Positions 15,021 to 17,016 of a stretch of DNA of 32,928 nt are shown here, piece after piece. A program made the position numbers and the translations under genes. Each line of letters starts with the position of its first letter. The first letter of the stretch is position 1. This stretch comes from Candidatus Infernicultor aquiphilus (GTDB lineage Bacteria; Atribacterota; Phoenicimicrobiia; Phoenicimicrobiales; Phoenicimicrobiaceae). Location: assembly GCA_002782675.1 (NCBI GenBank), contig PFIP01000131.1:6028-38955 (forward strand), written 5' to 3'. The notes below the pieces were generated by a model. That model had not been told where the DNA came from, made no database searches, and saw only the letters and a program-made list of their open reading frames with translations.

Positions 15021-15049
15021 TTGACTGAACTTGACATCTATGTTATAAT
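15021..15049 (+). promoter_or_regulatory. Promoter for the T-box/trpB2 transcript
   Basis: TTGACT (15021-15026), 17-base spacer, perfect TATAAT (15044-15049). The predicted start near 15056 lies just before T-box Stem I. Confidence 0.75.
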
Positions 15050-15065
15050 TTTAAAAATGAATATT

Positions 15066-15360
15066 TAAAAGCTAAGCGTGGGAGAAGTAGCAGATTACAA
15101 AATTGGACAGAGAGTCGTTTATGGTGAGAATCGACAAAAGATTTTAAATAATTTGTGAAATGGACCCACAAGCTTCGGGCTAAAAGGGCTAAAATAGCCT
15201 GAGTAAGTTTTGACGGATTTTTCCACCGTGAAAAGGAAAAGTATATCGGTATATAATTAATGTACTGGTATTCTATAGAGTAGGATTTTCTAAATAAAAA
15301 TCCTATTAGAGTGGTACCACGGAATTAACCTTTCGTCTCTCAGAGATGAAAGGTTTTTTT
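15066..15360 (+). promoter_or_regulatory. T-box riboswitch, Trp (UGG) specifier, first antiterminator/terminator
   Basis: Stem I base pairs 15069-15073 with 15171-15175 and 15078-15082 (GTGGG) with 15165-15169 (CCCAC). The apical region has the family-typical AGAGAGTCG and GGTGAGAATCGAC. The 3' side of the specifier loop reads GTGAAA-TGG-A-CCC, giving UGG (15161-15163), the Trp codon. A Stem III-like hairpin (AGGATTTT/AAAATCCT, 15281-15304) precedes the T-box sequence GTGGTACCACGG (15311-15322). The terminator is AACCTTTC.../...GAAAGGTTTTTTT (15327-15360). The bulge residue is U, which pairs with discriminator A or wobble G. Uncharged tRNA-Trp should favour read-through toward trpB2. Confidence 0.9.
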
Positions 15361-15440
15361 ATTTACAATTTATATTATATACCCATATGCCATATAAGAG
15401 GAGTTTAATAATTAAGACTGTATATTATATTAATTTATTA

Positions 15441-15520
15441 GACTCAATAAGGGTGGCACCGCGGAAAAATAGCTCTCCGTCCCTATTATTAAAATAAGCT
15501 GGGATGGAGAGCTATTTTTT
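15441..15520 (+). promoter_or_regulatory. Second T-box antiterminator/terminator module without its own Stem I
   Basis: A second, fully consensus T-box sequence GGGTGGCACCGCGG (15451-15464) is followed by a strong terminator AAATAGCTCTCC(G)TCCC ... GGGATGGAGAGCTATTTTTTT (about 15467-15520). Only about 80 AU-rich bases separate it from the first terminator, too few for a Stem I with specifier and apical loops, and none is visible. The bulge residue is C, matching a G73 discriminator, which bacterial tRNA-Trp carries. The likely reading is a duplicated decision module served by the single upstream specifier stem. Confidence 0.87.
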
Positions 15521-15538
15521 TAACCAAGGAGGTGCAAT

Positions 15539-15568
15539 ATGTTCATATTACGTAATTGGCCCCCTTAA
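15539..15568 (+). CDS. Putative nine-codon leader peptide with Trp codon (MFILRNWPP)
   Basis: AAGGAGGTG (15526-15534) is followed five bases later by an ATG and the short ORF MFILRNWPP-stop. It lies after the second terminator and 89 bp before trpB2. Its only tryptophan codon (15557-15559) sits three codons before the stop, followed by two prolines, and the codons after Trp form one arm of a perfect palindrome. The arrangement recalls the B. subtilis rtpA (anti-TRAP) leader, where a T-box is followed by a short Trp-containing leader ORF that adjusts translation of the next gene. Stalling at UGG or at Pro-Pro-stop could alter the hairpin. That it is translated is inference. Confidence 0.6.
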   Translation: MFILRNWPP

Positions 15569-15657: not shown

Positions 15658-17016
15658 ATGAAAAGAGTTAAATTTGTTCTTGATGAAAAAGAAATGCCGA
15701 CTACCTGGTATAATATTCTGGCCGATTTACCTGAATCACTTCCACCTCCTTTGCACCCGGCAACCAGGAAACCAATTAAGCCTGATGACCTTACTCCCTT
15801 ATTCCCCATGGCTTTAATTGAACAGGAAATGAGTACCCAGCGGTATATTGAAATTCCGGAAGAAGTACAGGATATTTATCGAATGTGGAGGCCAACTACC
15901 CTTTATCGGGCCTGGAGATTAGAGAAAGCATTGGATACACCGGCTAAGATTTATTATAAATATGAAGGGAGTAGTCCTTCTGGAAGTCATAAACCCAATA
16001 CTGCAGTAGCTCAAGCTTACTATAATAAAAAAGAAGGAATTAAGCGAATAACTACTGAAACGGGAGCAGGTCAGTGGGGTAGTGCCTTATCTTTTGCTGG
16101 TGCCTGTTTTGGTCTGGAGATTAAAGTATATATGGTTAAAATCAGTTATATGCAAAAACCTTATCGTAGAGTAATGATGCAGACCTGGGGGGCAAACTGT
16201 ATTCCTAGTCCTTCTCCTGATACCCAAGCCGGGAGAGATATGTTGGCTAAAGATCCTGATTGTCCCGGAAGTCTTGGTCTGGCTATTAGTGAGGCGGTAG
16301 AGGAGGCCGCTAAGCGTGATGATACCCATTATTCCTTAGGAAGCGTATTAAATCATGTCTTGCTGCATCAGACTATCATTGGATTAGAATCAAAGAAGGT
16401 TATGGAACAGATTGGTGAATATCCCGATATTATTATTGGATGTGTGGGGGGAGGATCAAACTTTGCCGGTCTTTTCTTACCATTTTTAAAAGATAAAATT
16501 GAAGGGTTGAAGCCTGATTTAAGGATAATATGTGTTGAACCGGCAAGTTGTCCGACTTTAACCAGGGGTCCTTATAGTTATGATTATGGTGATGTAGCTG
16601 GGCTTACTCCTTTATTAAAGATGTATACTCTGGGACATGGTTTTATTCCTCCACCAGTTCATGCCGGAGGTTTGAGGTATCATGGTATGGCTCCTATTAT
16701 CAGTCATTTACTTAAATTAGGATTAGTTGAAGCACGAGCAGAACACCAATTGGGGACTTTTCAGGCTGGAGTGACCTTTGCCAGAAATGAAGGTATTATT
16801 AGTGCTCCGGAAACCAACCATGCCATTAGAGCTACTATCGATGAAGCACTTAAATGTAAAGAATCTGGAGAGGCAAAAACTATATTATTAGGTCTTAGTG
16901 GACATGGTCATATGGATATGGCTGCATATGAGGCTTATTTTGCCGGAAAATTAAAAGATTATGCCTATCCTAAGGAAAAAATTGAAGAAGCCTTAAGAGA
17001 ATTACCAAAAATTTAA
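15658..17016 (+). CDS. trpB: TrpB2-type tryptophan synthase beta chain
   Basis: 452 aa, PLP enzyme that condenses indole with serine (or phosphoserine in some relatives) to tryptophan. Length, the N-terminal extension and the motif [16 protein letters not shown] (PLP Lys112) mark the TrpB2 branch rather than the ~400-aa TrpB1. [15 protein letters not shown] is the substrate-carboxylate loop, [14 protein letters not shown] binds the PLP phosphate, and [11 protein letters not shown] is near the C-terminus. No trpA or other trp gene is beside it, suggesting indole salvage or a separately regulated subunit. AAAGGAGAAAAAG precedes the ATG. Expression is expected to depend on tRNA-Trp charging through the long leader. 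In some phyla TrpB2 is the sole TrpB and in others a paralogue. Confidence 0.94.

Follow-up and report, generated by a model that had tools for sequence, protein, structure and literature searches.

A tRNA-Trp T-box leader of trpB2 in Atribacterota with one Stem I, two terminator-antiterminator modules and a Trp-codon reading frame

Introduction

Why would a single T-box Stem I be followed by two complete T-box/terminator modules, and what could a second module contribute when it has no Stem I of its own? The question is raised by the leader of a gene for a TrpB-like tryptophan synthase beta subunit in Candidatus Infernicultor aquiphilus (Atribacterota), which we analysed within a stretch of 32,928 nucleotides, hereafter the window. 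An earlier note, made from the letters alone, had drawn attention to this leader and to the TrpB2 type of the gene, with no trpA nearby. Both remarks about the gene hold: the assignment as trpB2 is backed by two family models (Table 1), no trpA was found near the window trpB2, and a separate and complete trp operon, read by sequence as trpE-G-D-C-F-B1-A, stands on contig C9. The term trpB2_o is used for a trpB2 outside the operon where trpB1 is present in the genome as well (PMC1854888), and the window trpB2 is an ordinary gene of this kind.

Architecture of the leader

Positions 15065-15343 of the window align with the Rfam T-box model RF00230 from model position 1 to 219 (87.2 bits, E 1.7e-19), with the UGG specifier at the loop position expected of a T-box Stem I, and a second match covers only model positions 155-216 (15392-15484, 36.3 bits, E 2.1e-6). 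A default Rfam scan at the gathering score of 93 does not list the window, the score of the first match being marginally lower; the missing entry is therefore a threshold effect and not an absence. The T-box core motif RGGTGGYACCRCGG has two matches in the 33 kb window, against 0.14 expected from shuffling. The earlier note had read a single Stem I with a UGG specifier followed by two complete modules, and had proposed RF00230 as a check for one Stem I against two antiterminators; the full and the partial match, the nine of nine A1/A2 pairs in each module and the two terminators, both much more stable in folding than shuffled sequences (z −4.6 and −8.5), bear this out.

The 5' arm of each intrinsic terminator contains the 3' arms of the A1 and A2 of its module, so that the antiterminator and terminator states are mutually exclusive, as in a transcriptional T-box. 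Module 2, its terminator included, spans 15392-15521 without a Stem I, and the end of terminator 1 is separated from the Stem III of module 2 by about 37 nt, a gap that leaves no room for a second Stem I, as the note had stated. Nor did RF00230 match a further specifier-bearing Stem I, and the leader is not a fully tandem T-box; with one Stem I and at least two terminator-antiterminator units, in the window and in a layout kept across the order, it belongs with the partly tandem T-boxes. Beyond a spare terminator, module 2 reads as a whole discriminator domain (AAGAG-Stem III-AA, the UGGCACC bulge and helices A1 and A2) followed by a terminator. RRRxG-Stem III-AA together with the antiterminator is the unit described as necessary and sufficient for aminoacylation sensing (PMC7583486), and module 2 contains this minimal sensor entirely, including the terminal G-U pair of A2, albeit without Stem I.

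A likely promoter precedes Stem I (Table 1), and TTGACA-N7-TATAAT is also kept in the trp leaders of the order. This arrangement, in which TTGACA lies 7 nt before TATAAT (window 15031-15049; L009, L011, L013, L026, L034, L189, L190, L192 and L195), is common to trpE and trpB2 leaders; the spacing is too short for a −35/−10 pair, and the element may be an operator, or else a promoter of the extended −10 type.

Table 1. Features of the trpB2 leader in window coordinates.
Feature	Position	Strand	Evidence or sequence
Likely promoter, TTGACT-17-TATAAT, with TG one base 5' of the −10 (extended −10)	15021..15049	+	sequence reading
Stem I with apical AGAGAG/GGUGA elements	15065..15175	+	RF00230 alignment, model position 1 onward
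Specifier codon UGG (Trp)	15161..15163	+	RF00230 alignment position; AAAUGG(A/G)CC kept in trpB2 and trpE leaders of the order
Module 1 Stem III	15280..15306	+	GTAGGATTTT/AAAATCCTAT helix
Module 1 antiterminator, A1 AGAG/CUCU, A2 ACGGA/UUCGU	15308..15340	+	9/9 pairs; RF00230
Module 1 bulge UGGUACC	15312-15318	+	within antiterminator 1
Terminator 1, overlapping the 3' arms of antiterminator 1	15327..15360	+	−18.3 kcal/mol, z −4.6, then U run
Module 2 Stem III with RRRxG (AAGAG, 15396-15400) and 3' AA flank	15396..15447	+	GAGTTTAATAA/TTATTAGACTC helix; motif definition PMC7583486
Module 2 antiterminator, A1 AGGG/CCCU, A2 GCGGA/UCCGU, terminal G-U pair	15450..15484	+	9/9 pairs; RF00230, 36.3 bits
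Module 2 bulge UGGCACC	15454-15460	+	within antiterminator 2
Terminator 2, overlapping the 3' arms of antiterminator 2	15463..15521	+	−33.6 kcal/mol, z −8.5, U run
uORF MFILRNWPP*, SD AAGGAGGUG just upstream	15539..15568	+	ATG TTC ATA TTA CGT AAT TGG CCC CCT TAA
uORF Trp codon UGG	15557-15559	+	sequence
uORF hairpin GCCCCC-UUAA-GGGGGC, starting inside the UGG codon	15559..15574	+	−13.4 kcal/mol; compensatory changes
trpB2 (TrpB-like tryptophan synthase beta subunit, outside the trp operon)	15658..17016	+	NF009057 749 bits, TIGR01415 660 bits, both above cut-off

The discriminator position of the two bulges

The only tRNA-Trp found in the genome (anticodon CCA) ends in GCCA and so has the G73 that the earlier note had assumed; its G73CCA can pair with the UGGU of module 1 and with the UGGC of module 2. 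The U of the first bulge and the C of the second had also been read correctly, and U stands opposite G73 in 46% of the Trp T-boxes of TBDB (PMC7778990). The further proposal, that module 1 matches by wobble and module 2 strictly, describes the window but does not extend to the order: among the leaders of the order that were examined, only that of the window has U as the N of its module 1 UGGN, the 16 others having C, in module 2 this base is C in 14 leaders and U in 2, and two trpE leaders show the reverse arrangement, with C in module 1 and U in module 2. A wobble-then-strict contrast as a conserved design is rejected in view of the 16 module 1 copies with C and, as far as the aligned leaders indicate, the U/C contrast cannot explain the point of the duplication.

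Conservation of the two-module layout

Relatives of TrpB2 were taken from named genomes, which place the window in Atribacterota, and from 40 related genomes. Thirteen genomes of the order, from families f1 and f2, have a close trpB2, and 12 of the leaders could be read, one contig ending too early. A comparison of homologous leaders had been suggested in the earlier note, and it came out in favour of both modules: two are present in 11 of the 12 readable trpB2 leaders, with a conserved UGG specifier, and the remaining one (L103) has a single module. The layout is identical in the trpE leader of the genome that holds the window, where it stands before the complete trp operon and gives a full and a partial RF00230 match, and five further trpE-type leaders of the order (L189-L192 and L195, the leader of L191 ending before its gene) also have two modules, which makes six of the six read. 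Outside the order, four trpE leaders from other Atribacterota families (L196-L199) have one module, and the second module was therefore probably gained within this order.

At the level of residues, the module 2 bulge follows UGG[CU]A[AC]C in all 16 copies, and A1/A2 pairing is complete (9/9) in 15 of these. As to the third pair of A1, 15 of the 17 copies of module 1 have A-U, against G-C in 15 copies of module 2 and a return to A-U in one (trpE leader L195), and the Stem III helices, when the modules are compared across the order, diverge in sequence and retain their pairing. Since bulge, A1/A2 and Stem III are kept with compensatory change, module 2 looks maintained as a tRNA-binding domain, and thus as more than a terminator. 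One could suppose instead that module 2 is a fail-safe terminator only, a decayed copy that lowers leakage and senses no tRNA, given that terminator 2 is the stronger hairpin of the window and that the relative L103 manages with a single module. We consider this improbable: a mere terminator needs neither bulge nor A1, A2 or Stem III and would block expression constitutively, whereas all these elements, together with the flanking purines, are kept with compensatory changes across the order and in two operons.

In L103 (G019:C47), the Stem III is module 1-like and the core module 2-like, and the leader looks like a natural collapse of duplicated modules; by this example, two gates would appear not to be indispensable. 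A single phylum holds a natural series, made up of leaders with a single module beyond the order, leaders with two within it and the one fused module of L103, which makes the role of a second discriminator without a second Stem I directly testable.

A short reading frame with a Trp codon at the foot of a hairpin

Two points were absent from the earlier note, namely that trpE has this architecture too and that a conserved uORF with a Trp codon and a hairpin lies downstream. The uORF is placed between terminator 2 and trpB2, with AAGGAGGUG directly 3' of terminator 2. The pattern was put into a rule (SD, start, at least four codons, and a stem of at least five pairs, at least four of them GC, with codon X at its foot) that was run on 100 non-redundant trpB2 leaders from many phyla. 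X is UGG in 26 of the 100, against a mean of 0.15 and a maximum of 2 in shuffles, a count that describes the pattern and is not a blind test, the rule having been written after examples had been seen. No other of the 64 codons occupies the hairpin foot as often as UGG; the runner-up, CCC (10), sits inside the same uORF-hairpin element, and all others reach at most 4. The difference from shuffles and from the other codons is large all the same. L034 and L036 narrowly fail the rule.

The uORF hairpin is found in all 13 trpB2 genomes of the order, at 14 Chloroflexota loci (mostly Dehalococcoidia) and in 3 Spirochaetota. It stands after T-boxes (Atribacterota, Dehalococcoidia), 3' of classical Trp-rich leader peptides and terminators (L024, L052), and also without T-box or leader peptide, for example directly behind a trpA-like gene (L025). 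The trpE leader of the genome that holds the window lacks it, and in this genome the pattern GGAG-ATG-TGGCCCC matches only the trpB2 uORF and one more site, on C131. The W is mostly codon 8 (range 7-13), and the stem has C-G 24 times and T-A 4 times at position 3, and C-G 22 times and G-C 6 times at position 4, counts that lean towards a stem, the register having been chosen per sequence for best pairing.

In the spirochaete trpB2 leaders (L024, L031 and L052), a leader peptide with Trp codons (WWWW in L024, WWW in L052) and two serial terminators precede the uORF hairpin, the peptides lying about 100-300 nt upstream of trpB2. WWW-type leaders without the uORF hairpin were observed in Neomarinimicrobiota (L016, L044 and L045) and Latescibacterota (L072).

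What, then, could this element do? The Trp codons of E. coli trpL lie at the foot of hairpin 1:2, and a UGG in the leader of a tryptophan gene, at a trpL-like place at a hairpin foot, suggests by analogy that ribosome dwell at the uORF UGG may report the supply of Trp-tRNA. A different reading is that the hairpin is not Trp-regulated and acts as a 5' stabiliser or ribosome-loading element, the UGG being a by-product of a GGCC-type stem; indeed, the stems often start with GGCC or GGCG, which supplies the GG of UGG. Against this, a U precedes the GG in 28 of 28 aligned cases although the stem varies (GGCCCC, GGCGCC, GGTCCC), an invariance that is partly circular, as the cases were picked for UGG, whereas the comparison of the 64 codons is not circular. 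Moreover, the UGG is in frame with an upstream start with no stop between, the number of codons before W varies, and the gene behind the uORF is a tryptophan synthase, so that we regard a stem without Trp regulation as unlikely.

Several outputs known from other leaders were considered. Unmasking of the ribosome-binding site of the ermC type, by a ribosome stalled at UGG, is not supported by the folding models, in which the mean cost of opening the trpB2 start is 3.2 kcal/mol in the free leader and 3.3 kcal/mol in the stalled one; the cost is essentially unchanged, with stalling lowering it in 2 of 28 leaders and raising it in 7. For Rho control of the tnaC type, a C-rich, G-poor rut segment is missing after the uORF, the spacer to trpB2 being A-rich with a C content of 2-17% in 26 of 28 leaders, which still allows for Rho action without a canonical rut. 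Nor is an intrinsic terminator supported as the output, since a reading of the leaders showed no U-tailed hairpin on either strand between the uORF hairpin and trpB2. Decay, pausing, coupling and non-canonical Rho action remain as outputs of the uORF.

The same stretch bears on the idea that a classical trp leader-peptide attenuator, with a downstream terminator as its output, survives in the uORF as a remnant or in variant form. This would be in line with the placement of the Trp codons in trpL and with the spirochaetes, where the same uORF is preceded by a classical Trp-rich leader with terminators; the A-rich, C-poor spacer that separates the uORF hairpin from trpB2, however, contains neither a terminator nor an alternative pairing partner, and we find a classical attenuator distinctly unlikely. 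The uORF shares with the trpL attenuator a short translated ORF with a Trp codon at a hairpin foot; it differs in having no downstream 2:3 antiterminator or 3:4 terminator, in having mostly one Trp codon and, in Atribacterota, in following a T-box.

We are confident that the uORF-hairpin element is real, and somewhat inclined to regard it as Trp-dependent; that it is undescribed also seems rather probable, judging from a literature search limited to open-licence papers. The element is compact, phylogenetically wide and tied to a tryptophan synthase gene, fits no attenuator output tested, and may reveal a different way to read ribosome stalling.

Relation to known T-box leaders

A structural class with duplicated terminator-antiterminator elements was reportedly introduced by Vitreschak et al. 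in the journal RNA in 2008. Partly tandem T-boxes constitute a mechanistically unexplained class (PMC7583486), with which the present leader has in common a single Stem I that carries the specifier, multiple terminator-antiterminator units and an association with amino-acid biosynthesis genes. In contrast to those described, it occurs in Atribacterota and, within a single genome, on two Trp operons; the duplication takes in the entire Stem III discriminator domain and, at trpB2, a Trp-codon uORF follows. The T-box layout is thus rare but already described, and its novelty is the new phylum.

Fully tandem Trp T-boxes are well documented in the trp operons of Bacillota (PMC12452182), and these likewise place two serial terminators before Trp biosynthesis genes; they consist, however, of two contiguous complete T-boxes, whereas the window has one Stem I for both modules. 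In Dehalococcoides, a single T-box precedes a trpB-like gene (PMC2494555), a Trp T-box before a trpB2-type gene as here, but with one module only; several Dehalococcoidia also have the uORF hairpin.

Proposed mechanism

We propose, with considerable confidence, that the leader is a partly tandem T-box, the class in which terminator-antiterminator elements are duplicated, and that it controls transcription, is specific for tRNA-Trp and is read serially at two gates, with the uORF as a third check. Stem I would recruit tRNA-Trp through its UGG specifier, and two successive discriminator domains, each overlapping its own intrinsic terminator, would test the acceptor end in turn, so that RNA polymerase would have to pass two tRNA-dependent terminators before trpB2. 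Both modules presumably sense uncharged tRNA. After the polymerase has cleared terminator 1, the tRNA bound to Stem I is probably passed on from the first bulge to the second, or another uncharged tRNA may dock. As two serial terminators would multiply their leakage, expression could be expected to be lower at the basal level and to respond more steeply; that two decision points sharpen the response to uncharged tRNA-Trp, as the earlier note had put it, is a plausible inference.

Because there is one Stem I for two modules, and a tRNA acceptor end fills only one bulge at once, module 2 might also work without Stem I, with a free uncharged tRNA of matching acceptor end docking directly, which would leave gate 2 weaker and less Trp-specific. 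We think this unlikely, as T-box discriminators rely on recruitment by Stem I for their specificity, and prefer a second gate served by the Stem I of the leader.

Transcripts that pass both gates would carry the translated uORF, in which the Trp codon opens a GC hairpin, and ribosome dwell at UGG could provide a third, translation-linked measure of Trp-tRNA that acts on trpB2. To the full statement, that the trpB2 leader gauges Trp-tRNA three times in series (uncharged at two discriminators with one Stem I, charged through dwell at the uORF UGG) and that the uORF is an undescribed Trp-responsive element without terminator or sequestration of the ribosome-binding site, we give about even chances.

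Other T-boxes of the genome and order

Several further T-boxes were observed. The leuS T-box (specifier CTC, Leu) has a complete tRNA-Ala(GGC) gene as its Stem III loop, GTAGAT-[tRNA]-ATCTAC, followed by GGGTGGTACCACG. This arrangement occurs in L008 (G000:C101:22982-23235, minus strand) and also in L193, L194, L201, L203 and L204, that is, in each of the six genomes read from the order, which represent two families. Processing of the tRNA would cut the leader in two. A literature search found no description of a tRNA-hosting T-box. To our knowledge, no T-box that hosts a tRNA gene has been described.

The carA leader T-box (L202, G000:C9:31473-31671, minus strand, and downstream) likewise carries an additional T-box/terminator unit, GTGTGGCACCACGGG ... 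CGTCCC ... GGGGCGGGATTTTTT, and is the third T-box with duplicated modules in the genome. In the ilvD leader (L007, G000:C9:26646-26901, minus strand, and downstream), the T-box is followed by a ykkC-like sequence, CTAGGGTTCCG ... GGACCAAGTGGCG ... ACACCGTGGG, which resembles known tandems of T-box and ppGpp riboswitch. Finally, a T-box with an apparent TTC specifier (Phe) in L001 (G000:C91:1638-1857, minus strand) precedes archease-like and RtcB-like genes, an unusual T-box target, and the RtcB-like gene seems to hold an intein.
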